Below are positions 16,702 to 32,464 of a DNA stretch of 64,000 bases, one piece after another. Under the pieces are notes generated by a model. That model saw only the letters and a list, made by a program, of their open reading frames with translations. It made no database searches and was not told where the DNA came from. The translations under genes were made by a program, and so were the position numbers. Source of the DNA: an uncultured Paracoccaceae bacterium (GTDB taxonomy: Bacteria; Pseudomonadota; Alphaproteobacteria; Rhodobacterales; Rhodobacteraceae); NCBI GenBank assembly GCA_947498645.1, contig CANMKS010000001.1:62001-126000 (forward strand), given 5' to 3'. The stretch's first letter is position 1. Each line of letters begins with the position of its first letter.

Positions 16702-19700
16702 CTAGTGAAAATCCCGTGACTTCGGGATCACCCTGACGTCACGCGGATGCCGTCCGCGCGGATCATGTGGGATTGATTTCCTGACCTCATCAGCATGGGC
16801 CAAGGGCGGGTCCATCTGGTCATGGGACAACCGCTCAAGCGCATCACTGCGGTCTGTCAGGTGGTTGGCCACAACGTGAATGACATCTTCACTGCGCTGC
16901 ACGACCCCTTTTACATCAATCACGCGGGCACGCATGATGACCTTGCGAAATGCCTCCATCACCTTGGGCCAGACCACCAGATTGGCGACACCGGTTTCAT
17001 CCTCGACGGTGATAAAGCACACGCCCTTTGCGCTGCCGGGGCGTTGGCGAATGAGGACGATCCCCGCAAGTTTCACAGACTGCCCATTGCGCATCTGATC
17101 CAGCATCCGGGCCGGCGTATACCCTTGCTTGTCCATGCTGCGGCGAAGGAAGGACATCGGATGGGCCTTAAGGGACAGTCGCGTGGTCTGGTAATCGGCC
17201 ACCACATGTTCGCAAATCGGCATTTGGGGCAGATCGAAACGGATCTCTTCGCCCTCGTCCTTATGCTCGGCAAAAAGTGGCAAATCAGGCGCATCCCGCA
17301 GCGCCCGCGCATCCCACAACGCTTGTCTGCGATCTAATGTCATCGAGCGTACAGCATCCGCGGCGGCCAGTTTCCGCAATGTACCGGCATCCAGCCTGGC
17401 CCGGTCTTTGAGGTCGCCAAGATCGGCGAAAGGCCGCACTCTCGCGTCCATGATGCGCTGTGCCATCTCTTGGCGCATACCGTCCACCTGCCGCAGTCCC
17501 AAACGCACCGCGAACTGGCCGGGCGTGATGGGTTCAAGCGTGTTGTCCCAATCGCTGTAGTTGACATCAGGCCCGCGCACGACCTTGCCATGCTCGCGGG
17601 CATCGCGGACGATCTGCGCTGGCGCATAAAACCCCATTGGCTGTGAATTGAGCAAAGCCACACAGAACACATCCGGGTAGTGGCATTTGATCCAGCTGGA
17701 AACATAGACCAGATGCGCAAAACTGGCTGCGTGACTTTCGGGGAAGCCATAATCACCGAACCCTTTGATCTGGTTGAAACAGCGCGTTGCAAATTCCGGG
17801 GCATATCCGCGGCGGATCATGCGACCGACCATCTTTTCCTCAAGCTCTCCTATCGTGCCTTTGGACCGGAATGTGGCCATGGCCTTGCGTAGCTGGTTGG
17901 CCTCATCGGGGCTGAATTCTGCCGCGACCATAGCCAGCTTCATCGCCTGTTCCTGAAAGATCGGCACACCTTTGGTCCGGCTCAGCACTTTGCGTAACTC
18001 ACCCGGATCATGTGGCGGGGCGGGTGACGGGTAGTCCTCGGGTTCTTTCCCGGCGCGCCGGCGCAAATAGGGATGCACCATATCGCCCTGAATAGGGCCC
18101 GGTCGCACAATGGCGACCTGAATGACCAGATCGTAAAACTCGCGCGGTTTAAGTCGTGGCAACATGTTCATCTGCGCACGGCTTTCGACCTGAAAGACGC
18201 CAAGACTGTCACCTTTGCACAGCATGTCATAGGTCGCCGGGTCTTCCTGGGGAATGTCCGCCAAGGTAAAGCGTTTGCCATAATGCGCGTCGATCAGATC
18301 AAACGCCTTGCGGATACAGGTGAGCATCCCCAGTGCCAGCACATCGACCTTGAGGATGCGCAACTCATCAATGTCATCCTTATCCCATTCGATGAAACTC
18401 CGTTCCGGCATTGCGCCATTGCCGATGGGCACTGTCTGGGTCAGCGGTTTTTCCGTCAGAATAAACCCGCCCACATGCTGGCCCAAATGACGAGGCATAC
18501 CGATCATTTTATCGGCCAGTTTGATCGTGCGCGCCATGAGCGGATCACGCAGATCAATCCCCGCCTCTGCCGCTTCCCTGGCCCCAACTTCGCGGCCCCA
18601 TGAGCCCCAGATCGTTTTGGCCAGCGCCGTGGTGATATCCTCGGACAGCCCCATGACCTTGCCCACCTCACGCACCGCCATCCGGGGGCGGTAGTGGATG
18701 ACGGTCGCACAGAGTGCGGCCCGGTCGCGCCCGTATTTATCGTAGATATGCTGGATCACCTCCTCGCGTCGCTCATGCTCGAAATCAACGTCGATATCGG
18801 GAGGTTCCTTGCGTTCCTCGCTAATGAAACGCTCAAACAAGAGATCATTTTTGTCGGGGTCCACGGCGGTGACGCCAAGTACATAGCAGACGGCGGAGTT
18901 TGCCGCTGACCCCCTGCCCTGGCACAGGATCGGTGGATCACATTCGTAACGTGCGTAGTTCACGATCTGTTGGATCGTCAGGAAATACTGGGCAATCTCC
19001 AGCTTGGCGATCAGGGCCAACTCCTTGTGCAAGGTCGCCTTCAGCGTCTCAGGCACCCCGTCTGGATAGCGCCAACTGGCCCCTTTCCACGTCAGTTCTT
19101 CAAGGTATTCCTGCGGCGTGCGCCCTGCTGGCACGGTTTCCTGCGGGTATTCATAGGCCAGTTCCCGCAAGTCGAAATTGCAGGCATCCGCAACCGTGCG
19201 CGTCGCCCGGATCGCATGTGGCCACTCGGCAAAGAGCCGGACCATTTGCGCAGGCGATTTCAGGTGCCGTTCAGCGTTGGCATCCAACAGGAACCCTGCC
19301 TTGTGAATGGTGGTCTTGTGCAGGATGCAGGTCATCACATCCTGCAAAGGCCTTTGTTCAGGCGCATGATAATGCACGTCGTTGGTCGCCAGAATGCACA
19401 TGCCGTTGGCCTTGGCCAGCGCATCCAGCCGATTGATCCGCGCCCTGTCATCGCCGCGGTAAAGATAGCTGGCGGCAATATGTTGCAGCATCGGCAACGC
19501 ACGCCTGAGGCGGCTGAACCCGGCGCTGAAGTGATCCAGATCAGGACCGGGTAACGCAATCAGTTGCACCCCCGTGCCATGCTTTGCCAGATCATCCAGC
19601 GTGATGTCGCACTGGCCCTTGGCCTGCCATGCGCCATCAACATCTTGCATTTTTCCCTTTGAAAGCAATGTACAAAGCCGCCCGTAGGCGGCACGATCCT

Positions 19701-20007
19701 GAGGGTAAGCCAGAAACGCTTCGCCCGTGGTGAGTTGCAAGCGACACCCGATAACAGGCGTGATCTGCGCCTTCAACGCTTCGGCATGCAGGCGCACGAC
19801 CCCGGCCATCGTATTGAGGTCAGCACAGCCCAATCTGTCGTACCCCAGCGCATTGGCCGTTGTCGCAAGATCAACGGCATCAGACGCCCCATGCAGGAAG
19901 GAAAAGCAGGTCGTCACACCCAGCTCAACAAAATCCGCACGCGGATTGGGCCTAAAGCCTTCTTCCTCTATTGTGCGCCTTGGGCGCTGGTTATCCATCT
20001 CGGGCAT
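16702..20007 (-). CDS. dnaE2: Error-prone DNA polymerase III alpha subunit
   Basis: A 1101-residue C-family polymerase (ImuC). It has an N-terminal PHP domain (FVELGVTTCFSFLHGASDA), the polymerase active-site motif PPDIDVDFEHERREEV, and a C-terminal OB-fold segment. DnaE2 does SOS-induced translesion synthesis with ImuA and ImuB. The start is the ATG at 20007 (MPEMDNQRP), sharing one base with the imuB stop (TAATG); a longer frame to 20034 would lie inside imuB. The cassette is transcribed away from the LexA box at 22146. Confidence 0.95.
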   Translation of the reverse strand: MPEMDNQRPRRTIEEEGFRPNPRADFVELGVTTCFSFLHGASDAVDLATTANALGYDRLGCADLNTMAGVVRLHAEALKAQITPVIGCRLQLTTGEAFLAYPQDRAAYGRLCTLLSKGKMQDVDGAWQAKGQCDITLDDLAKHGTGVQLIALPGPDLDHFSAGFSRLRRALPMLQHIAASYLYRGDDRARINRLDALAKANGMCILATNDVHYHAPEQRPLQDVMTCILHKTTIHKAGFLLDANAERHLKSPAQMVRLFAEWPHAIRATRTVADACNFDLRELAYEYPQETVPAGRTPQEYLEELTWKGASWRYPDGVPETLKATLHKELALIAKLEIAQYFLTIQQIVNYARYECDPPILCQGRGSAANSAVCYVLGVTAVDPDKNDLLFERFISEERKEPPDIDVDFEHERREEVIQHIYDKYGRDRAALCATVIHYRPRMAVREVGKVMGLSEDITTALAKTIWGSWGREVGAREAAEAGIDLRDPLMARTIKLADKMIGMPRHLGQHVGGFILTEKPLTQTVPIGNGAMPERSFIEWDKDDIDELRILKVDVLALGMLTCIRKAFDLIDAHYGKRFTLADIPQEDPATYDMLCKGDSLGVFQVESRAQMNMLPRLKPREFYDLVIQVAIVRPGPIQGDMVHPYLRRRAGKEPEDYPSPAPPHDPGELRKVLSRTKGVPIFQEQAMKLAMVAAEFSPDEANQLRKAMATFRSKGTIGELEEKMVGRMIRRGYAPEFATRCFNQIKGFGDYGFPESHAASFAHLVYVSSWIKCHYPDVFCVALLNSQPMGFYAPAQIVRDAREHGKVVRGPDVNYSDWDNTLEPITPGQFAVRLGLRQVDGMRQEMAQRIMDARVRPFADLGDLKDRARLDAGTLRKLAAADAVRSMTLDRRQALWDARALRDAPDLPLFAEHKDEGEEIRFDLPQMPICEHVVADYQTTRLSLKAHPMSFLRRSMDKQGYTPARMLDQMRNGQSVKLAGIVLIRQRPGSAKGVCFITVEDETGVANLVVWPKVMEAFRKVIMRARVIDVKGVVQRSEDVIHVVANHLTDRSDALERLSHDQMDPPLAHADEVRKSIPHDPRGRHPRDVRVIPKSRDFH

Positions 20008-21539
20008 TACGCAAACATCCCATGCACGAACCACCGCGGATCACCGCCGCGGCCATCCTCATGCAACCCTTCGCGATAAAGCCAGAGCCGCCGCCCTGTC
20101 TGATCCTCAACCTTGAAGTAATCGCGCAACCGGGTGCCGGGGCGGTCTTTCCACCATTCAGGCGCGATCCGTTCCGGCCCGGTATACCGCGCCACCCGGT
20201 GGGTCTGCCTGCGCCAGACAAACCGTGCAGGCGGACCTTCGGGGACGGCATAAAGCACGCGCAGCTCTTCGGGGTGATCAAGCAGACGCAGTGGACGCTC
20301 TTTTGTCAGAACCACCACTTCATCAGGCCTGTTGGCCAGAGCGGCAATCTGCGCTTCGGCCCGTTCGGGCACATGACTTTGGCGCAACACAGGGCGGGTG
20401 ACGGCACGGGGGCCGAATTTGGCGCTTAGCCGGTCAATCAACCGGGTCAGGTGCAGGTCATCGTCCGACCCACCATCCAGACGGGTCTGCTTGTCCTGCA
20501 TCTCTTCGATGGCACCGGCCGCCAGCGTGATCAGATCAAAGCCGAAACCGGGGTTGATCCGCTCGACCTTGTCACGAAACAGGCTGTGCAAATGTGCTGG
20601 ATCACGATTTGGGGCAGAGGTTGCCACATCGACATAGCTGACATCCCCGTCCGTCTTGTAAACAGTCAGGTGCAAACGGCGGCAGCCCAGCCCTGCGTGC
20701 TTAAGCTGATCACAAAGATCCTCACAAAGGCCCGGCAAATGCGGGGTCGGGTCAAAGATCGGTTCGGCCAATCGCGCCTGCGCACGGATCACCGGCTTGG
20801 CGTCCATACTGGACACCGGTTCGGCCAGCTTGCCCAAGGCCTGATCCAGTCGCATCAGCGGGTTCGCCGCAAGCTCTGCTTTGACAAAACGGCGGGTGAG
20901 CGACAGGCGAGGCACATCCATCACCGCACCAATGGTTTTCAGCCCCAGCCTGCGCAGCACAAGCTGGGTCTTGGGGTCCAACCGCAACCCGCTGACTGGC
21001 AAGGGGCCCAGCTTGAAATGGGCTTCGCCCGGTCCGCAAATCGAACGCACAGACCCAAAGCGGGCCAAGGCCCAGGCAGCACCCCAGGTGGAGGCCACTG
21101 CCAGCCGCGCGGTCAGACCCAGTAGCGACAGCTGGGTTTCCATCTCAACCAACATCGCGGCCTCACCGCCCCACAGATGATCCGCCCCGGTGGTATCCAG
21201 GATCAACCCATCATCGCCGTCACGTGCCGTCCAGGGGCACCAGCGGCGCGCCCATAGGACCAGCCGATCAAGAGCCGCATGATCACCGGCCACATCGGCG
21301 TATTCGACCTGGAGTTCAGGGCAAATCGCACGCATATCCACAACCCGCGATCCGGGATGAATGCCGTCAATACGTGCGGCGCGGTTTGCGGCGTGAATAA
21401 CAGGCCCATGATGGCCTTCGCGCGCCAAAACCACAGGCACATCATCCGGCGGCGCGTTCCCGCAGCGCTCCATCACCCGGCTCCACCGCTCGATCGCGAG
21501 TTGGGGCAGCGAGATGGAGACGATCCGCCGCCCCGTCAT
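20007..21539 (-). CDS. imuB: ImuB, inactive Y-family polymerase-like mutasome hub
   Basis: A 510-residue DinB/UmuC-like protein. The start is the ATG at 21539 (MTGRRIVSISLPQLAIERW). The upstream frame extension is antisense-like and arginine-rich and is not used. ImuB proteins keep the Y-family fold but have lost catalytic carboxylates and link ImuA, DnaE2 and the beta clamp. Here LILDTTGADHLWGGE aligns with the degenerate catalytic region. The gene overlaps imuA by 98 bp and joins dnaE2 by TAATG. Confidence 0.93.
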   Translation of the reverse strand: MTGRRIVSISLPQLAIERWSRVMERCGNAPPDDVPVVLAREGHHGPVIHAANRAARIDGIHPGSRVVDMRAICPELQVEYADVAGDHAALDRLVLWARRWCPWTARDGDDGLILDTTGADHLWGGEAAMLVEMETQLSLLGLTARLAVASTWGAAWALARFGSVRSICGPGEAHFKLGPLPVSGLRLDPKTQLVLRRLGLKTIGAVMDVPRLSLTRRFVKAELAANPLMRLDQALGKLAEPVSSMDAKPVIRAQARLAEPIFDPTPHLPGLCEDLCDQLKHAGLGCRRLHLTVYKTDGDVSYVDVATSAPNRDPAHLHSLFRDKVERINPGFGFDLITLAAGAIEEMQDKQTRLDGGSDDDLHLTRLIDRLSAKFGPRAVTRPVLRQSHVPERAEAQIAALANRPDEVVVLTKERPLRLLDHPEELRVLYAVPEGPPARFVWRRQTHRVARYTGPERIAPEWWKDRPGTRLRDYFKVEDQTGRRLWLYREGLHEDGRGGDPRWFVHGMFA

Positions 21540-22128
21540 AGGTCGCCACCCATTTGCCGGGCTTGACCCGGCGCGAGCGGAACAGATCGAGCGACCAACG
21601 CGGCGCGCCCGGCGCCTGTGGGTCGTGCGGATGTGGCGCGGATGGCAGGCTGGCAATACGCCAGCGGTCGCGTGCAGCACTCAGATCGGGGCTGGCCGCA
21701 CGACGGATCAACCAGCACGATACATCCGCAGCCTCTGCCCGGATTGCCAACCGTTTGGTGGCAGTAAAGTCCAGCCCAGGCGGATCGCCCCAAATTTCGC
21801 CAATCACAGCGCCCAGCGCGCGGCAACGCAACCCATCCTCCATCGCCCAGAGCACATCCACTGCGCGTGACAGATCGACCATGATGATTGGGCGATCGCC
21901 GCTGATGCCTGCAAGGGCCGGACGTCCGGCCTCTTTGCGGGACAAACGATCCTGCACCCAAAGGACCGGCGCTTGCGTGCGAGGCAGACGCGACAGGGCA
22001 AAGCCCACAGCGCTGGCATCCGTGGGGCAGTTTGGAAAGGCCTCCGACAGGGTATGGGGCAGCGCGGCAAGACCCGCACCCTGCCCGGCCAACCTCTTGT
22101 GCATACGAAGCGAGCCCATACACGACAC
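21442..22128 (-). CDS. imuA: ImuA, RecA-like mutasome protein
   Basis: About 228 residues (starts at 22128 or 22119 are both possible: MSCMGSLRMHKRL). ImuA is a RecA-like, Walker-deficient protein recruited to the SOS mutasome. Recognisable segments are the PVLWVQDRLSRKEAGRPA stretch and the C-terminal RSRRVKPGKWVATYDG. The gene is first in the cassette, and its 3' end runs 98 bp into imuB. The LexA box lies 18 bp upstream of the first start. Confidence 0.9.
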   Translation of the reverse strand: MSCMGSLRMHKRLAGQGAGLAALPHTLSEAFPNCPTDASAVGFALSRLPRTQAPVLWVQDRLSRKEAGRPALAGISGDRPIIMVDLSRAVDVLWAMEDGLRCRALGAVIGEIWGDPPGLDFTATKRLAIRAEAADVSCWLIRRAASPDLSAARDRWRIASLPSAPHPHDPQAPGAPRWSLDLFRSRRVKPGKWVATYDGAADRLHLAAPTRDRAVEPGDGALRERAAG

Positions 22129-22575: not shown

Positions 22576-22665
22576 GGAGACGTGGCCGAGTGGTCGAAGG
22601 CGCTCCCCTGCTAAGGGAGTAGGCGGGAAACCGTCTCGAGGGTTCGAATCCCTTCGTCTCCGCCA
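22576..22665 (+). tRNA. tRNA-Ser (anticodon GCT)
   Basis: A class II tRNA with a long variable arm. The acceptor stem GGAGACG (22576-22582) pairs with CGTCTCC (22655-22661), followed by a G discriminator and encoded CCA (22663-22665). The anticodon arm CTCCC-CTGCTAA-GGGAG gives anticodon GCT at 22610-22612. The T-arm is GGGTTCGAATCCC. An integrase gene begins about 140 bp downstream, so the 3' end is a likely integration site. I found no second copy of the 3' end in this window. Confidence 0.97.
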
Positions 22666-22807
22666 TTTTCCTCAGAATCGCTATCTCATAACCATCTGAT
22701 AGTAGGGTGGAATTGGGCGTTTTCGCGCTTATGGCGGTTCTTGGTCCGCTTGATTTGCTGCACATTTTGCTACACAATTTGCTGCACAAATGCGGAGATT
22801 TTCCGTC

Positions 22808-24066
22808 ATGAGCATCGCGAAAAGAGGCCGTCTTTATCATCTTCGCCGCCGCGTCCCGCGCCGGTATCGAAGGGTTGAGCCGCGCGAAACGGTCTGGATC
22901 AGCCTGCATACCGACTCTGAGACAGTGGCCACGAGCAAGGCGGACCGCGCGTGGAGCCAGATGATTGAGGCTTGGGAGGCCCGTCTGGCCGGGAACAGCG
23001 AGGATGCGGAGGCCCGTTACGAAGCCGCCCGCGACCTCGCCCGGGCGCGGGGCTTCCGGTATCTGGACGCGGGCAATGTGGCCAAACTGCCGGTCGAGGA
23101 CGTTGTAGAACGCGTCGAGGCCATTCCGGCCCCCGCGAACCAGCCCGACCCCGTCGAGGCCGCCGCCCTTCTCGGCACTGTTCCCAAACCGCGCATCACG
23201 GTCACCAAGGCGCTGGAACTGTATTGGGTCCTCGCGAAGGAGAAGACCCTCGGCAAGAGCGAGGATCAGCTGCGCCGCTGGGAAGCGCCGCGCAAGAAGG
23301 CGGTGAAGAACTTCGTCGCGGTCGTCGGCGACAAGGGAATCGCCAACATTACTCGCGACGACATGCTGGACTTCCGCCAGCACTGGCTTGACCGGATCGA
23401 GGCGGGAGAGGTGACGGCAAACTCCGCCAACAAGGATCTGATTCACCTCGGCGACGTGTTGAAGACCGTCAGCGGTTGGGGCTTTCGCTCCCTTTGGGCG
23501 AACTGTCCTTCAAGGAAGGCGAGAAGCTGACGCGTCCGCCGTTCAGTGAGGACTGGATCAGGAAGCAGATGCTTGCCCCCGGCGCGCTCGACGGCTTGAA
23601 TGGCCAAGCGCGCGCTTTGCTGCTGGGAATGATCAACACCGGCTACCGGCCCTCCGAAGGGGCAGCGCTCACGGCGGATACGATCAGACTCGATTGCGAC
23701 GTGCCACATATCTCCATCGAAGCGGAGGGGCGGCAGTTGAAGAGCCACTACGCCCGCCGCATGATCCCCTTGACCGGCGTCTCGCTTGAGGCCTTCAAGC
23801 AATACCCCGAGGGCTTCCCCCGCTACCGCAACCGCGCCACCCTGAGCGCAGTCGTGAACAAGTTCTTGAGGGCGAACAGCCTGCTCGAGACGCCGCGCCA
23901 CTCCTTCTACTCGTTGCGCCACTCCTTTGAGGACCGCATGCTCGCCGCCGGGATCGACGACCGCATCCGGCGTGACCTTTTCGGTCACCGATTGGACCGG
24001 GAACGATATGGCAAGGGCGCGTCTTTGGAACACGTCGCCGAGCTCGTCGCCCGGATCGCCTTCTGA
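22808..24066 (+). pseudogene. Tyrosine recombinase/integrase, frameshifted
   Basis: Two adjoining frames together make one integrase of normal length. The N-terminal part (MSIAKRGRLYHLRRRVPRRY) includes the SAM-like core-binding domain and reads to about 23475. The C-terminal part, in another frame from about 23476 (LGLSLPLGELSFKEGEK), holds the catalytic R (NTGYRPSEGAAL), the box-II arginine (YSLRHSFEDRM) and the final tyrosine (RERYGKG). The joint VLKTVSG / LGLSLPLGE fits a single-base deletion near 23475. The start at 22808 is preceded by GGAG; an upstream ATG at 22790 has no ribosome site. It lies just 3' of tRNA-Ser, its probable target. Confidence 0.85.
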
Positions 24067-24284: not shown

Positions 24285-24819
24285 GCGAAATAGCATGGGT
24301 CGGCGCGTTTGGATTGTGCAGAGCATCAGCCCGCTGCTCGCAAAACGGCTTGCCACAGCGTGCAGATCGGACAGTTGGATTGTCGGGGGCTTCGGCGTCT
24401 CGTGATGAATTCGACCGGCGACCGGCGCACCTCAGAGCGCTGCTGCTGTCTTTCGAATCAAGCCGGTTCGGTCGGCAGCATCGGCTCGCTGGGATCGTGC
24501 AAATGGTGCCTTGAAACGCCGCTTGGGAGAGCCGCTAGGGAGAACGGAAGGGGATGGCAAGATAAAGCGAGTTCCTCGCTGGCCGGGCCTATGGCCCTAA
24601 GCTGTTGTCTGCACATTGTTTTTTGGCGTGACGCATGATGGATCGCACTGTGTCTTGCGGCAAGGTTTCCCCGTTTTATGAATGATTTCAATGCCCTGAC
24701 GTGGCATGCCGCGCGGTGCCTTCACGCGAGAGCCCGCTACGTCTTCTCTTTGCACGCCATGCTTCTATGCTCCTCAAACACCGCTTGATTGACCCAGATC
24801 GGGCGTCGATTGTCGCTCC
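24285..24819. other. Intergenic or decayed region upstream of the relaxase fragment
   Basis: No reading frame with convincing protein character. Short frames on both strands are proline- or cysteine-rich shadows. The stretch presumably held genes of the former conjugative element and the promoter for the chimeric gene at 24820. Confidence 0.4.
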
Positions 24820-27282
24820 ATGACCCGCGACGAAAATGATCTCCGCATCCGCCCCGGCAAGGTCCGGGATCGATCTCAGAGGGTTCAAAGCGTGCGGCGC
24901 CAGGCGCGGGGATTTCTGGCCGATGTACATCGTGCAATACGCCGTGCGGGGGGCGATCCAAACCAGTTGGCCGGGAAGAGGAAGGCCAGCGGACGGTTCA
25001 ACGCCCGGGGTCGCGGTGCCAAGGTGGCGGTGGCGTTGAAGGGCCGGAATCCGTGGTCCCGCGGCCTGGACGGGACCCGAACGCGGGCCCGCCGGGTGAC
25101 CGTGAAAGCGCGGATCGTGAAGCTGAACCCGCAGCGTGGCGCGACGCGCGGCCGGTCCTTCGTGAGCGCCGAGGCGGTTGACGCCCATCTGCGGTATTTG
25201 GAGCGCGATGGCGTCACCTGCGACGGTGAGAAGGGACAGGTCTATTCCGCAGATGCGGACGATTTTCTGGCCGACATGGATGCTAAGGAGTATCAGATCG
25301 TAATCTCTGACGGCGGCCACGGCATGTCTCGTAGTGATGTAGTTGAGAGATGGCTCGTTCCGTCAACAAATGATAAATTGAAACGGAAAGTGAGTCCCAA
25401 GGGACGAGTTCTTCAGGGAAGGAAAGGAGTCGGAAGGTTTGCAGCGTCCATACTTGGAGACGACCTGCTCTTGGAGACAACCACGAACAGCGGTGAAACG
25501 ACCTCAGTATTCGTTGAGTGGGAGACATTTGAGGACGCGCACTATTTAGATGAAGTCGAGCTACTCATAGATACAAGAGAATCCGCTAGTGAACCGGGAA
25601 CTATCCTTACGATCAAGGGAAGTGCCGAAGGACTGGAAGAGTGGAACGACGCGCAGTTTCGGCGTTTGATGTATGAATTGCGGAAGTTGACGCCCCCTAC
25701 TGCGGCAGTTTCAGGGGTTGAACTGAAGCAGGAGAAGTTTGACATCAAGTTGAAGATATCTGGTTTCGAAGGAGTTCAGGACTCAGAAGAAACCATAGAG
25801 TCGTTTCCAATCTTGGAGTTTTACGACTACATGATTTCTGGCTACGTTGATGATTCAGGGGCCGGAATATTAAGATACTCGACGCAGAAGATTGAAAACG
25901 CGAGCGACGAGGAAATTTCTGTAGATTTTTCCGGCTTTTTTGAGAAGTCATGTGGTGCTCTTCATTTTGATATCAGAGTCTACGATAGAAACAAGGATGA
26001 CATCGATCAATTAATTCGAAGAGGCCTCAAAGATAAGGAAGGAAACTATCTTGGAAGCCTAGCAGCTCGACAACTCCTAAATTTCAATAACGGCGTCGGG
26101 GTTTATCGGAACGGATTTAGGATTCGCCCACTTGGAGATGCGCAATTCGACTGGCTCAAGCTGAACCAAAAGAGAATTCAAAACCCCTCCATGAAGATCG
26201 GTGGCAACCAAGTCATTGGGTTTGTGCATATCGAGCCCGAGGAGCGGTCAGGCCTGATCGAGAAAAGTGCCCGAGACGGCCTGAAGGAGAATGCGGCGTA
26301 TGAGAGACTAATTGATGTTACCACAAAGGTGATCGAAGAGCTTGAAACTCGCAGATTTGCGCTTCGTAGGTCACTAGACCTCGGCAAGCCAAAATCTCGA
26401 GTAGAAAAGCAGATTCGTCAGTTGTTTTCTGATGATCATATTAAAACAGACATAGTTCACAGGCTTGAACGAGCCGGGATAGGAGAAAAGGTCACAAAAG
26501 AGATCTCGGAAATTCTGTCTAAAGATATCGCAGCAAAGAATAAGGCGGCCGAAAGTATTCGTCAAACTGTCGCGGTTTATCAAGGACAAGCGACATTAGG
26601 AAAAATCGTGAATGTGGTTCTTCACGAAGGGCGACGTCCCTTGAATTTTTTCAGAAATCAAGTGCCCAACCTAGAGTATTGGGGCAAGGTTTTTGACGAG
26701 AACCCTATATCGGAGAACTTGGCAAAGATCATTCCAATCGCACAAGAGCTCGGTCATAATGCGGATGTGTTTGCGCAACTTTTCAGCAGACTGGACCCCT
26801 TGGCGGCGGGAAAACGAACAGATGCTCGCTCCTTCAAATTGTCTGAGGCGCTGAGCGGTTCACTTAAGGTCTTTGAGAACACTCTTTCAGACCTAGGTGT
26901 GGATACGCATCTTGAGGGTTCTAAGAACTTTGAATTTGTCGGTTGGAAGCAAGATTTCTACGCAATTTTTACCAACCTGATTGACAATAGCTTGTATTGG
27001 ATGAGTGAAAAGAAGACGGGCAGCCCATCGATTTTCATTCGCTTTGAAGTTGACGAAGGAAAGCTCGTTTTCATCGATTATCGGGATAACGGCCCAGGAA
27101 TCGACAAATCTCTGATCGAGTCAGAAATTATTTTTGACCCGGAATTCTCAACTAAGAGAGACGGTACGGGACTAGGACTTGCCATCGCTGGAGAGGCCGC
27201 CTCTCGAAACAACTTGGAATTGAATGTCCTAGAGTCTGATAAGGGTGCGTACTTCAGGCTTCAGCCAGTTAATGGAGATTGA
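24820..27282 (+). CDS. Chimera: relaxase N-terminus fused to GHKL ATPase / histidine kinase
   Basis: An 820-residue frame in three parts. Residues 1 to about 152 (MTRDENDLRIRPGKVRDRS ... VDAHLRYLERDGV) match the start of alphaproteobacterial conjugative relaxases with an RVTVKARIV segment. From about residue 154 the text becomes an MORC/Hsp90-like GHKL domain: G1 motif DGGHGM at 164-169 and GRKGVGRFA at about 201-210. The N-box helix that should precede it is missing. The C-terminal third is a histidine kinase: H-box LHEGRRPL with H602, N-box NLIDNS (about 718), DNGPGID (about 757) and GTGLGLA (about 785). Codon use shifts at the joint near 25275-25285. The next gene encodes a receiver protein and overlaps the stop. 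Whether the fusion is functional is unknown; an ATG at 25275 could give a protein without the relaxase part. Confidence 0.8.
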   Translation: MTRDENDLRIRPGKVRDRSQRVQSVRRQARGFLADVHRAIRRAGGDPNQLAGKRKASGRFNARGRGAKVAVALKGRNPWSRGLDGTRTRARRVTVKARIVKLNPQRGATRGRSFVSAEAVDAHLRYLERDGVTCDGEKGQVYSADADDFLADMDAKEYQIVISDGGHGMSRSDVVERWLVPSTNDKLKRKVSPKGRVLQGRKGVGRFAASILGDDLLLETTTNSGETTSVFVEWETFEDAHYLDEVELLIDTRESASEPGTILTIKGSAEGLEEWNDAQFRRLMYELRKLTPPTAAVSGVELKQEKFDIKLKISGFEGVQDSEETIESFPILEFYDYMISGYVDDSGAGILRYSTQKIENASDEEISVDFSGFFEKSCGALHFDIRVYDRNKDDIDQLIRRGLKDKEGNYLGSLAARQLLNFNNGVGVYRNGFRIRPLGDAQFDWLKLNQKRIQNPSMKIGGNQVIGFVHIEPEERSGLIEKSARDGLKENAAYERLIDVTTKVIEELETRRFALRRSLDLGKPKSRVEKQIRQLFSDDHIKTDIVHRLERAGIGEKVTKEISEILSKDIAAKNKAAESIRQTVAVYQGQATLGKIVNVVLHEGRRPLNFFRNQVPNLEYWGKVFDENPISENLAKIIPIAQELGHNADVFAQLFSRLDPLAAGKRTDARSFKLSEALSGSLKVFENTLSDLGVDTHLEGSKNFEFVGWKQDFYAIFTNLIDNSLYWMSEKKTGSPSIFIRFEVDEGKLVFIDYRDNGPGIDKSLIESEIIFDPEFSTKRDGTGLGLAIAGEAASRNNLELNVLESDKGAYFRLQPVNGD

Positions 27283-28310
27283 AATTGACCATTAAACTAT
27301 TGCTTGTCGAAGACGATGATGGCGACCGCCAAGGATTCGTTCAAAGTGTTGAACGTTACAACCATGAGAATGGTGCTAACTTCTCGGTGGTCGAGTGCGG
27401 CACCTTAGAGGAAGCATTGAATCGCCTTGACGAAGGTTTCGACGGAGCGGTTATCGACATGAAGCTCGGCGACGCTGGCGGCGAAGGCAATGCAATTTTG
27501 AAAGAAATGGACAATAAGAACATTCGAATGCCTATCGTGATCCTAACCGGAACCCCCGCTGAAGCCGATGATCACTACGTCCATATTGAAGTGCTTAAGA
27601 AGGGCGAGGCGAATAATCTTACGATCTTGGAAGACTTTAGACAAGTCCATGCGTCTGGTCTCACCAGAGTTATGGGAGGGCGGGGTTTGTTGGAAGAGCT
27701 GCTCAGCAAGGTCTATAAATCCAACATCCTCAGCCAGAAGGAAGTCTGGAAGAAGTACGGGCAGAAAGACGCTGAAAAGTCGGAAAAGGCGTTGATGCGC
27801 CATGTGATGAACCATCTTATCCAGATGGTTGATCTGGATGAAGAAAGTTGCGTGCCTGAGGAATTCTACATTTTTCCGCCTGTTGGTGAGGCGCTGCGTA
27901 CCGGCACTGTCGTCAAGTCAATGGCCAATGGTTCATATTATGCGGTAGTCAACCCGCTGTGCGACTTGACCGTCCGTCCCAACGGTGAATTCAAGGCTAG
28001 AAATGTTTTACTTTGTAAGATTGCGTCCTTGGCCGAATGCGCGAAGCATGAAGCCAAGAGCGAGGAAAATGTTCGAAAGGAATTGGAGAAGAACAAGAAG
28101 AACTGCTACCATGCTCTGCCAAGCACGGACTTTTTCGAGGGAGGTTTTCTAGACTTTGAATCTTTAACTTCGGTTGACAAGGGGCAACTTGCAGCTGAAT
28201 TTGAAAAGCCATTGCTTCAAATCTCCCCCGCTTTTGTCAAAGATATCGCTTCTCGACTTTCCTCGTTTTATGGCAGGCAAGGCCAGCCAGCACTTACCTT
28301 TGTCGAGTAG
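27279..28310 (+). CDS. Receiver-domain protein with uncharacterised C-terminal domain
   Basis: About 343 residues. The N-terminal receiver domain has the acidic pair (LLLVEDDDGDR), phosphoacceptor D60 (AVIDMKLGD), T90 (VILTGTP) and the conserved lysine (EVLKKGE, residues 107-108). No known DNA-binding domain follows. Residues from about 125 on form an unrecognised domain with YAVVNPLCDLTVRPNG and many charged residues, possibly an effector or adaptor. The TTG at 27279 overlaps the upstream stop; a TTG at 27285 has better spacing from GGAG (27274-27277). The partner kinase is the preceding gene. The stop lies just before the IS3 remnant. Confidence 0.8.
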   Translation: MKLTIKLLLVEDDDGDRQGFVQSVERYNHENGANFSVVECGTLEEALNRLDEGFDGAVIDMKLGDAGGEGNAILKEMDNKNIRMPIVILTGTPAEADDHYVHIEVLKKGEANNLTILEDFRQVHASGLTRVMGGRGLLEELLSKVYKSNILSQKEVWKKYGQKDAEKSEKALMRHVMNHLIQMVDLDEESCVPEEFYIFPPVGEALRTGTVVKSMANGSYYAVVNPLCDLTVRPNGEFKARNVLLCKIASLAECAKHEAKSEENVRKELEKNKKNCYHALPSTDFFEGGFLDFESLTSVDKGQLAAEFEKPLLQISPAFVKDIASRLSSFYGRQGQPALTFVE

Positions 28311-28328: not shown

Positions 28329-28583
28329 ATGACCTACTTCTCGTTGATTGACCTGTGCCGCCGTGAAGGCATATCTCAGGGCATTTACTACAAATGGTCA
28401 AAGGACTTTATGGAAGCTGGTAAAAAGCGGCTTGCGGGTGACACGGCGCGTGCTGCGAACACTGATCAGGTCAAGGAACTGCGTCGCGAGGCAAAGGATC
28501 TCAAAGAGGTGGTTGCGGAGCAGACGCTCGAACTGCGCCTTCTCAAAAAAAGCATGTTCGACGGTGGGGGCGACCACGAATGA
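28329..28583 (+). pseudogene. IS3-family OrfA, 5'-truncated
   Basis: An 84-residue frame with the OrfA leucine-zipper half (LCRREGISQGIYYKWSKDF, GKKRLAGDTARAA, LELRLLKKSM). Family OrfA proteins are longer at the N-terminus, so the real start is lost. It overlaps orfB by ATGA, as is normal for IS3 elements that use ribosomal frameshifting. Confidence 0.8.
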
Positions 28584-29559
28584 GGTATCCCGCATCCGAG
28601 AAGTTAGAGATCATCCGGCTGGTCGAAGACAGCCATCTGTCGGCGCGCCTTACACTGGCCAAACTGGGTATCCCTAGGACCACATTCTATCGCTGGTACG
28701 ACCGGTATCTGCAGCGTGGCGAAGCTGGGCTGCAGGATCGATCTCCCAAGCCAAAACACGTCTGGAACCGCGTGCCCGATGAAGTGAAGCGCAAGGTCGT
28801 CGACTTCGCCTTGCAGGAGACAGAGTTGTCACCCCGCGAGTTGGCGGTGACGTTCACGGACCAAGAGAGGTATTTTGTCTCGGAATCCACGGTGTATCGC
28901 GTGCTGAAAGCCCATGATCTGATCACCAGCCCGGCATTTATCGTGCTTAAGGCGGCGAATGAGTTCAAAGACAAGACCACAGCCATTAACCAGCTCTGGC
29001 AGACCGACTTCACCTATATCAAGGTCCTTGGTTGGGGCTGGTTTTACCTCAGCACGGTTCTCGACGATTACAGCCGCTACATCGTCTCTTGGAAGCTTTG
29101 CACCAACATGAGAGCTGAAGATGTGACGGACACGCTGGACCTCGCATTGCAGGCATCAGGTTGCGACCAAGTTCATGTCGTCACAAGCCACGCCTGCTGA
29201 GTGATAACGGATCAAGCTACGTCTCTGGCGACTTAGCAGAATGGTTGAAAGACAAAGGCATGAAGCACTCTCGTGGTGCGCCTTATCACCCTCAAACGCA
29301 GGGCAAAATCGAGCGTTGGCATCAGACCCTAAAGAACCGCATCCTGCTGGAGAACTACTTCCTGCCGGGTGATCTTGAGGCCCAAATCGAAGCCTTCGTC
29401 GATCACTACAATCACCAGCGCTACCACGAGAGCATCAACAACGTTACACCTGCCGACGTCTACTTTGGCCGTGACAAAGCCATTCTAAAACAAAGGGAAA
29501 GGATCAAACGAAAGACACTCGAAGCGCGACGCTTGCATCACCGCCAGCACGCCGCATAA
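28580..29559 (+). pseudogene. IS3-family OrfB (DDE integrase-type transposase), frameshifted
   Basis: The first frame (MRYPASEKLEIIRLVEDS ... DQVHVVTSHAC) stops early at about 29200, and the rest continues in another frame (KPRLLSDNGSSYVSGDL ... RRLHHRQHAA). The DDE residues are split across the two: D in WQTDFTYIK, D in LLSDNGSSY and E in GKIERWHQT. The family text HVV-KPRLLSDNG is restored if one base is added near 29182, pointing to a one-base deletion. The element is therefore not expected to transpose on its own. Confidence 0.85.
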
Positions 29560-30691
29560 TCAAACCAACCAGATGAGCCAAACTCTCTCTTAGTTTACGC
29601 AGCCATTGGTCCCAAAAACCCTGACGACGGACAGTCGCATAGTAATGCCGCCAACTATAAAGCGTGCGCGCTTTGCCATCAGCGCCTACCCGCAAATCCA
29701 GCTCATTCAACAACGCTTTAAAATGCTCAGCTAAGTTATGTAGCGTCGCCACTTCGCCCAGCCGCGTCGTAAACACAAACTCGTCGCTACGTTGTGTCAG
29801 CAGCTCATCGAAGCTGTCAGCGCATATTGCCTTGTTCAGCTTGCGCTGCCTGTCCAAGTACTTGTCTACCCTGTCTCGCGCCACTGCCGTCCGCTTCCGC
29901 GTTTTGCCGTCAACGTTCACCACCAAGTAGCGCTCATCGTCCTTTTCGTGCCACTCAATATTGCGCCAACGCAAACCAAGCGCCTCCGTACCGTGCCGCA
30001 CACCAGTGTTTGCCAGAAAAAGTACGTAGTTATGCAGCACTTCACGCGTTGCAGCCGCCTTTTCATTCCGCGTTTTCTTGTGCCAACTGCGCAGAGCCGT
30101 GTAAATTTTGGTGTACTCAGCGTTTGTGAAGCTGCCCCTGCTTTCGCTTTTGGCGCCCTTGTTTAGCAAAGTTGGACGCAGAGATTTTACCAACCAGCCG
30201 TGCAGCTCTGCTTCATCCAAAACGCGGTTCAGTGCAGCATTGTGATTGTTAATGCCGCTCTGCGAAAACGGCTTTTTGTTTTGCTCTGTGCGCCACGCGT
30301 CAAACGCTGTCAGCGCAGCCAAATCTATCTTCGCTATGTCTGTATCGCCAAAATATGGAATCAGCCATCGACGCAGTGCTGACACGTAGTCTTTGTACGC
30401 TTGTTTACCAACACCGCCGACGAGTTCGTTTTGCATGCGTTTGATGGCATATTCAGCAACGTGCTTGAACTTACGCGTTTGCGCGGGCAGCTTGTTTTTG
30501 ATGCGTGCGCGCGTTTCAAACATCAACTCAAGCGCACGCTCTCGCGCTTCGTCCAAATCATCAGTCTTCGTGCTGCGCACAATGCGCTTGCCGTTGTCCA
30601 ACGTCAGCCGCGCGCACCAGTTTTCGCTGCCTTGCCGCTTATCCAGCTTCAGCTTCTTGTGCACATTTATTGTCTGTACGCCGTAGCTCAT
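29504..30691 (-). pseudogene. Tyrosine recombinase/integrase, 3' end replaced by IS sequence
   Basis: The N-terminal and central domains look sound (MSYGVQTINVHKKLKLDKR; catalytic R in ANTGVRHGTEALGLRW; box II YSWRHYYATVRRQG). After RRQG at about 29618 the frame enters the reverse strand of the IS3 remnant and runs 37 codons to a stop, so the last box with the nucleophilic tyrosine is missing. The protein should be inactive. The gene starts 166 bp from the left tRNA-Cys repeat, as expected for the integrase of an older element at the same target. Confidence 0.82.
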
Positions 30692-31078: not shown

Positions 31079-32464
31079 TCAACGATAACGTGGGTCTTTG
31101 CAGTTGCCGCTTAAGGAAAATTCGGTGGTCGTTCGTTCCTTGCCCCAAATTTTGTTCCCTGCCCTCTGGGGGTGCATCTGAAAGTATTCATTGCGCTCCA
31201 AAAAATAGCGGTCGATAGCAGCTTTGGCGTCATCTTTTGATGCGTAGTTGCTGTTATGAATGATGGCACGTGACATTCCACTGAAGATTGCTTCGATAAC
31301 ATTTAGGAACTGCGCGCCTGCGGGTAGTGGAGCCAGTTCAACTTCGGGGCCGCGCTTAGCTGATGGTTCAGAGTTTTCGCATTCAATTTTCTCTAAGAGT
31401 TTCTTTGAGACGTGCCAAGAAGCAGCATCCCAAGAAAGAAATATTCGATCAAGGTGAGCATATTGTGTTTTGAGTAAGTCTAGCAGCTTGATCATTTCTT
31501 CTGTGTTCTTTTTCTCTGAGTAGAAATGGGTGACTTGGTTGGTCGACAGCTCCAACGCAGCCGTCATGATCAGTGCTCCCTTGGACTTTTGAAATTGAGG
31601 CACTGTGAACGCTGTTCCCGGCGGGACCAGTTTCTTTCCCTGCCGCTGCTTGACTGCGAATGGGCCATACTCATCGATTGAAAAGAAGCCATCCTTGCGG
31701 CTTAACGAGCCCAATATTTCTTGAATGTTGGCAAGCTTTGTTCGGTACTCGGGATCATTGCTGGTTAGTACTTTTTTCGCCTTCAGCCAACGATAGCCCG
31801 CTTCTTTGACTATTTGTCGTATTGAATGCCTGCCGACCTTGAAGCCCGATTGAGCTATGGCATCCTGAAGATCAATCAACTTCCATGATGTACGATTGAA
31901 TCCAAAGTCGGATGGTGGCGCATGCATAACCTGAAAGACAGCCGCCTTAAGGTCTTCCCTTTGTGTAACTCTAAGGCGTTTGGGCCTTGCATTTGTTGTT
32001 TCGCAGCTTCCGTGTTTGGCTAGAACGTTGAGCCATCTGTAGTAGGTTGATCTCGGCACGCCTATACACTGTAGAGCGCATCTTTTTGATAGTTTCGAGT
32101 GCTCAACGAGGTCGATAACGTCTGCCTTTTCTGATGCGTTCATCCGAGTTGGAAAAGGAGATGTGGATTGACGGAGCGCAACAAATCGGCTCTTAAGCCT
32201 TGCGGTTTCTTCTCTTTGAGGCTCATTTTTAGTGGTCGGCTTCGATCTTTTAGGGCGAATGCTGCGGGCTTTCTCGAGGCCCAAAGTGCCTGAACGAATG
32301 AAGCGGCTACGCCAGCAATAATACAAGCTTTCGGAGATCTCATTTTTCTCGCAAAGCTCTGTAATTGTGCATGTTTTTTCGAGTCCAGCCAACACGATCT
32401 GGGCCTTGAACTGACTGGAATGAAGTCTTCTAGCTTTTACAGTATTCAGCATCTGTTGCTCCAA
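31079..32464 (-). CDS. IS630-like DDE transposase with IS3-type N-terminal HTH
   Basis: A 461-residue protein. The N-terminus resembles IS3 OrfA helix-turn-helix domains (LHSSQFKAQIVLAGLEKT, ISESLYYCWRSRF). A second HTH follows (CIGVPRSTYYRWLNVL), then an IS630-type catalytic core with D in FFSIDEYGPF, D in FLSWDAASWH and E in FLNVIEAIFSGMSRA. It appears full length and uninterrupted. I could not find terminal inverted repeats around it, so it may be an immobile or domesticated copy. It is the first gene inside the left end of the tRNA-Cys element. Confidence 0.75.
   Translation of the reverse strand: MEQQMLNTVKARRLHSSQFKAQIVLAGLEKTCTITELCEKNEISESLYYCWRSRFIRSGTLGLEKARSIRPKRSKPTTKNEPQREETARLKSRFVALRQSTSPFPTRMNASEKADVIDLVEHSKLSKRCALQCIGVPRSTYYRWLNVLAKHGSCETTNARPKRLRVTQREDLKAAVFQVMHAPPSDFGFNRTSWKLIDLQDAIAQSGFKVGRHSIRQIVKEAGYRWLKAKKVLTSNDPEYRTKLANIQEILGSLSRKDGFFSIDEYGPFAVKQRQGKKLVPPGTAFTVPQFQKSKGALIMTAALELSTNQVTHFYSEKKNTEEMIKLLDLLKTQYAHLDRIFLSWDAASWHVSKKLLEKIECENSEPSAKRGPEVELAPLPAGAQFLNVIEAIFSGMSRAIIHNSNYASKDDAKAAIDRYFLERNEYFQMHPQRAGNKIWGKERTTTEFSLSGNCKDPRYR

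Follow-up and report, generated by a model that had tools for sequence, protein, structure and literature searches.

How does the start of a conjugative relaxase come to be read in one frame with most of a histidine kinase, and is the product a new kind of protein or a remnant? These questions are raised by an open reading frame (ORF) at 24820-27282 of the window, a stretch of 64,000 nucleotides from the genome of an uncultured Paracoccaceae bacterium. The ORF list gives it as uninterrupted, with an ATG start and a product of 820 amino acids. The product consists of residues 1-147 of an RlxS-type relaxase followed by native residues 49-721 of a GHKL-ATPase/histidine kinase (Table 1). Very probably, an in-frame deletion in a decaying mobilizable island produced this chimera and broke its first ATPase domain.

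A preliminary description of the locus had proposed that the start of a relaxase is joined to a GHKL/histidine kinase. The ORF is present as described, and each half has intact relatives elsewhere. The change in base composition and codon use that was said to accompany the fusion is also found at the joint. The GC content is 0.68-0.70 at 24800-25249, drops to 0.50 at 25250-25549, and stays at 0.43-0.51 until the end of the ORF; GC3 is 0.762 upstream of the joint versus 0.487 downstream.

Table 1. Features around the chimeric ORF, in window coordinates
Feature	Position	Strand	Basis
tRNA-Ser (GCT), adjoined by the island	22576..22665	+	ARAGORN; same tRNA beside the integrase in G240 and G200
Tyrosine integrase, frameshifted near 23470	22790..24066	+	Overlapping ORFs 22790-23530 and 23476-24066; Phage_integrase match
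Relaxase piece	24820..25260	+	First 147 codons; native start codon common to G240 and G200
Joint between relaxase and kinase	25260..25261	.	Homology boundaries and one-sided matches of the joint-spanning query
GHKL-ATPase/histidine kinase without its first 48 residues (N-box among them)	25261..27282	+	Five intact relatives; HATPase_c_3 and HATPase_c matches
Receiver (response-regulator-like) gene	27279..28310	+	Uninterrupted; colinear homologues after the kinase in five of five relatives
Transposase ORFs, presumably IS3-like	28329..29559	+	ORF list; single copy in the genome

Relaxase half and its intact relatives

Residues 23-148 match the RlxS relaxase model NF041267 (E 3.2e-18 using the first 152 residues alone). 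Among the 55 other genomes of the genus, two (G240 and G200) have a relaxase to which residues 1-147 are 92% and 85% identical, respectively. These relaxases are intact ORFs of 694 amino acids in G240 and 680 in G200, and they exist at the same tRNA-Ser/integrase site. Against NF041267 the window piece scores 65.7 bits, below the cut-off of 850. Because even the intact G240 and G200 copies (604.5 and 585.3 bits) score under this cut-off, the label "RlxS-type" denotes likeness. From tRNA-Ser(GCT) through the integrase, the DNA of the window is collinear with both genomes at 84-86% identity up to 25260 (G240) or 25254 (G200), and all three also share the sequence flanking the tRNA on its other side. 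Past the joint, the window does not align anywhere with the 20 kb retrieved around the G240 locus, a piece that includes only about 4.8 kb beyond the relaxase, and 104 kb of the bacterium's own chromosome do not align there with 59 kb of G200.

In the intact relaxases, the recognised part of the MobA/VirD2-like nuclease domain begins at residue 149 or 169, and that of DUF3363 at residue 296 or 310. Since both start after the retained residues, the window piece has neither: the nuclease domain (PF03432) is absent from the window protein at E <= 1, and the C-terminal DUF3363 gives no match. The likeness to the MobA/VirD2-like, DUF3363-containing relaxases therefore lies in residues 1-147 and in the integrase/tRNA-Ser context upstream, and the difference in these two missing domains. 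The preliminary description was right in calling this part a relaxase, though it counted 152 residues where the homology covers 147. Residues 1-147 include 36 Lys/Arg and 15 Asp/Glu. They would add positive charge to the kinase and no recognised domain, and DNA binding by them is putative. The suggestion of a new protein whose DNA-binding residues derive from a relaxase is thus unsupported, because the 147 residues precede the parts recognised as nuclease domain and DUF3363.

Kinase half and its operon

A scan of genome contigs found five loci whose kinases are 77-83% identical to the second half, in Actibacterium, Roseovarius, Shimia, Thalassospira, and Agrobacterium (L037-L041). These kinases are intact, with 721-725 residues, and each has its own N-terminus. 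Alignment with them shows the kinase part of the window protein complete from native residue 49 onward and without residues 1-48, among which is the N-box ELVKNAFDAD; the N-box is missing as had been proposed. Consistent with this loss, the HATPase_c_3 match (residues 155-239) starts only at profile position 28, while in L039, L041, and an Enterobacter mori plasmid (L057) the profile is matched from position 5. An N-box of the type ELxKNxxDA is kept in all 17 relatives for which the N-terminus was printed; 16 of these are distinct, as the L050 protein (721 residues) is identical to that of L040. N-box residues are required for ATP binding in GHKL proteins. By analogy, the first ATPase domain of the chimera should not bind ATP.

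The window protein thus lacks the complete N-terminal GHKL domain of the L037-L041 type and shares with these kinases the C-terminal HATPase_c and the H-box. HATPase_c (PF02518) matches residues 713-815 with an E of 5.3e-13, and the motifs LHEGRRP, NLIDNS, DNGPGI, and GTGLGLA are all present, in agreement with the earlier reading that the kinase motifs are intact. In an alignment with a histidine kinase of solved structure, the L039 H-box falls on the LAHQVRTPL stretch.

At all five loci a cytosine methylase homologue is found directly upstream of the kinase and a receiver homologue directly downstream. A Vsr homologue follows the receiver at four of them and is absent at the Thalassospira locus (L040). 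Pfam confirmed the methylase of L039 and the Vsr of L037. In the window, residues 148-820 are likewise followed directly by a receiver gene. Receiver motifs are present in it, and its Response_reg match of 25.6 bits is under the curated cut-off of 30.2; beyond residue 98 no Pfam family matched. The window differs from the five operons in the loss of the first 48 kinase residues and of the methylase. No cytosine methylase exists within the window, and the one of the operon has no match in the bacterium's own genome, in a search that was positive in a control genome (G517). Vsr was not found either: the best E in the window is 0.38, and the own genome gave no match in a search run without a positive control. 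At the Roseovarius locus L038, a relaxase-like ORF (by eye, 222-1532) lies upstream of the intact operon, which would be another link between such operons and mobile DNA.

One genome of the genus set (G234) matches the ORF from exactly residue 148 onward, without the relaxase. A search of the class (385 genomes) with the kinase half gave three other matches at E <= 1e-60. Among plasmids, 237 records were matched, the best at 52%. On the Enterobacter mori plasmid (4827-8049), a kinase 52% identical to that of the window is accompanied by a receiver homologue (41%), and no methylase or Vsr is annotated near them. The kinase-receiver pair may therefore also exist alone, and because of this plasmid the loss of methylase and Vsr does not by itself prove that the pair in the window is dead.

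The intact relatives look like two-component pairs in which the kinase carries an extra N-terminal MORC-like ATPase and is associated with a methylase and, in most cases, with Vsr. Similar arrangements have been reported. In the available part of PMC8011034, proteins combining HATPase_c_3 with a kinase-like region are described with response-regulator-like genes adjacent, cytosine methylases upstream, and Vsr downstream, and in that of PMC2292703 paraMORC ATPases are said to occur in restriction-modification operons. As far as these portions go, the intact relatives are alike in the order HATPase_c_3...HATPase_c, the receiver-like neighbour, the methylase upstream, and the Vsr downstream. They differ from the HEF_HK family (PF19191) treated in the same part of PMC8011034 in that its model matches neither the window protein nor L039, L041, and L057 at E <= 1. 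Because PF19191 is unmatched, the window protein and its relatives are set beside HEF_HK and outside it. A genome search with PF19191 was positive in none of 14 controls and is uninformative alone.

Joint between the two halves

The joint can be placed closely. Where the homology to G240 ends at 25260, DNA homology to the intact kinase gene of L039 begins at 25261; at the other four kinase loci it begins at 25288-25306. Protein alignments start at residue 148 for four of the five kinases and at residue 142 for L040. The preliminary description correctly tied the compositional switch to the fusion. Its location at 25275-25285 is, given these boundaries, about 15-25 bases too far downstream. Some uncertainty (about 10 bases) is left by the Asp-Phe-Leu stretch just after 25260, which is compatible with either parent. 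Little or no sequence is visibly common to the parents at the joint, as judged from present-day kinases and with a few codons compatible with both, and for this reason illegitimate recombination is the likely cause. That the joint is in frame is not improbable, because both halves keep their native frames and the chance of agreement would be about one in three.

To which genomes the joint extends was seen with a query of 120 residues spanning it (joint at query 57/58), run against 390 genomes of the same order at E <= 1e-6. Eighteen genomes match, and only the own genome matches throughout. Of the others, 12 match just the relaxase side, with alignments that end at query 57-83, and five just the kinase side, with alignments that start at 50-70. 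A motif filter displayed the sequence at 11 of the 12 relaxase loci and at three of the kinase loci; the remaining three (L072, L076, and L077) were classed from match ranges. All 11 relaxases displayed continue past the joint with relaxase sequence of one kind, and the three kinases displayed have their own N-box. Internal stops occur in the query region of three of the 12 related relaxases (L070, L071, and L072), in L070 and L071 near the position corresponding to the window joint.

No match spans the joint in the 55 other genomes of the genus (E <= 1e-12), in the 389 other genomes of the order (E <= 1e-6), or among the matches listed for 197 other genomes of the family. Full-length homologues elsewhere, which would have spoken for an old fusion, thus did not appear in these sets, and the local recombination that had been proposed is supported. 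An established fusion family was considered and rejected, as the own genome alone gives a spanning match in the genus (56) and order (390) sets and among the matches listed for 198 genomes of the family.

Other sources were covered as well. The relaxase half and the joint DNA have no match among plasmids. A scan of viral contigs with six exact peptide patterns from the chimera, an insensitive method, found nothing, and titles and abstract starts in the literature gave no relaxase/histidine-kinase fusion protein. A donor copy elsewhere in the own genome was rejected, since there is no second relaxase match. For the kinase half the own genome has, besides the chimera, just four weak matches to kinases, with E between 2.5e-7 and 1.3e-5.

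Island at tRNA-Ser and proposed origin of the chimera

The chimera lies in mobile DNA. The G240 integrase is one ORF of 428 amino acids and matches both parts of the window integrase at 89-91%; a 10-base gap relative to G240 indicates that a small deletion caused the frameshift. Across the tRNA-Ser is a gene cluster (16702-22128) which we take to resemble imuA-imuB-dnaE2. It is syntenic in G240 and in the retrieved part of G200, and this synteny would mark a conserved island site. At L047 and L048, the DNA after the integrase-relaxase pair is seen to differ among G240, G200, and the window. Because of this difference, the tRNA-Ser site appears to be a hot spot at which cargo varies. An exact repeat (14-20 bases) of the tRNA-Ser 3' end is not found in 104 kb, and therefore the right end of the island is undefined.

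Further rearrangement is seen downstream. The transposase ORFs, which we assign to the IS3-like family, start 18 bases past the receiver stop, and a minus-strand recombinase ORF (29504-30691) ends inside them, an overlap which suggests insertion with loss of adjacent sequence. Terminal repeats of the element were looked for and were not resolved in the sequence. Deeper in the same mobile cluster is a minus-strand transposase-like ORF (31079-32464), presumably of the IS630 type. The integrase frameshift, the lost methylase, the IS3-like ORF, and the stops in related relaxases make up a picture of decaying mobile DNA. Against decay, neither the chimeric ORF nor the receiver gene is broken by a stop or frameshift, and both keep their motifs.

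From these observations the following course of events can be proposed. A mobilizable island beside tRNA-Ser would have consisted of the integrase, an RlxS-type relaxase, and then variable cargo. The island would have carried, or come to adjoin, an operon of cytosine methylase, GHKL kinase, and receiver (with or without Vsr) in the same orientation. A single illegitimate recombination, most simply a presumably recent deletion between these neighbours of about 3 kb or more, would then have removed the rest of the relaxase gene from codon 148, the whole methylase gene, and kinase codons 1-48. As the frames happened to agree, the present ORF would have resulted, and any expression of it would be from the start of the relaxase. 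The order relaxase-methylase-kinase was found undeleted in no genome, and for that reason the deletion itself is something we infer.

It is also possible, though unlikely, that the relaxase gene received the operon by insertion, or that two islands recombined, and that in either case the parts were lost separately. The different cargo after the relaxase in the window, G240, and G200 fits such a history, and so does the additional rearrangement that the IS3-like ORFs show downstream. More events are needed, however, whereas one deletion explains both the colinear orientation and the clean joint.

Expression and possible function

If the deletion took place as proposed, what is left of the kinase? 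Residual activity may persist, because neither kinase nor receiver has lost its motifs and there is no sign of accelerated evolution, and the kinase could in principle still phosphorylate the receiver. On the branches of the relaxase piece, the window has eight synonymous and seven nonsynonymous changes and G240 has eight and six, in counts that omit 14 codons missing in G200 and three ambiguous sites. Pairwise dN/dS is 0.173 between the window and G240 (147 codons) and 0.101 between G240 and G200 (153 codons). For the kinase, dN to L041 is 0.170 in the window, 0.167 in L037, and 0.176 in L040; synonymous changes are saturated between the window and all five relatives. Neither the relaxase nor the kinase counts show accelerated or relaxed evolution. 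Such a result would fit a recent joint and continued selection or function equally well, and counts of this kind cannot decide between them. AlphaFold models are uninformative, with a mean pLDDT of 42.0 for the chimera (six sequences aligned) and 46.0 for the intact L039 kinase (five).

The truncated kinase might be translated separately from an internal ATG at 25276 (residue 153), which would make the relaxase part irrelevant at the protein level. This ATG is in frame and 15 bases past the joint. By eye, however, no purine run like a Shine-Dalgarno sequence precedes it, while the native starts that were printed (L037, L038, L039, and L041) have GGAG or GGAGGA upstream, and separate translation is improbable. 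An internal start would alter expression only, since the N-box is missing either way.

A functional new chimera is very unlikely. In such a protein the basic relaxase N-terminus would replace the ATPase sensor, and the kinase would go on signalling to the receiver, its output being altered or constant. In its favour are the intact ORF and receiver gene, the motifs in both, the lack of acceleration, and the basic composition of the relaxase residues. Against it, the chimera is seen in a single genome, its first ATPase domain is truncated, the island around it is decaying, and the relaxase piece has no recognised domain. It is very doubtful indeed that a single deletion made a working hybrid in which this N-terminus gives a methylase-linked kinase a new input or a constant output. 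Extremely unlikely, finally, is an assembly error, as the joint is inside a 3.24-Mb contig of a four-contig, 99.99%-complete assembly and no second genomic copy of either half exists to cause misjoining.

The deletion reading implies that the native function is presumably lost. The chimera is seen in one genome and is most likely non-functional or only partly functional, and it looks like an ordinary deletion scar instead of a new kind of protein. Between a dead chimera and a new protein, the two readings offered by the preliminary description, the former, as a dead or dying chimera, fits better with a frameshifted integrase and a missing partner methylase. Some caution is needed for this reason, as automatic annotation might call the ORF a relaxase-kinase fusion protein. 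The locus is also an example of a methylase-linked GHKL-kinase/receiver pair that exists within mobile DNA and sheds parts there. If the chimera were functional, a signalling protein would have gained a new input end through one deletion in a mobile element. The receiver gene, in addition, gives a weak match (E 8.6e-5) to PDC-M60B, a PADLOC candidate model.
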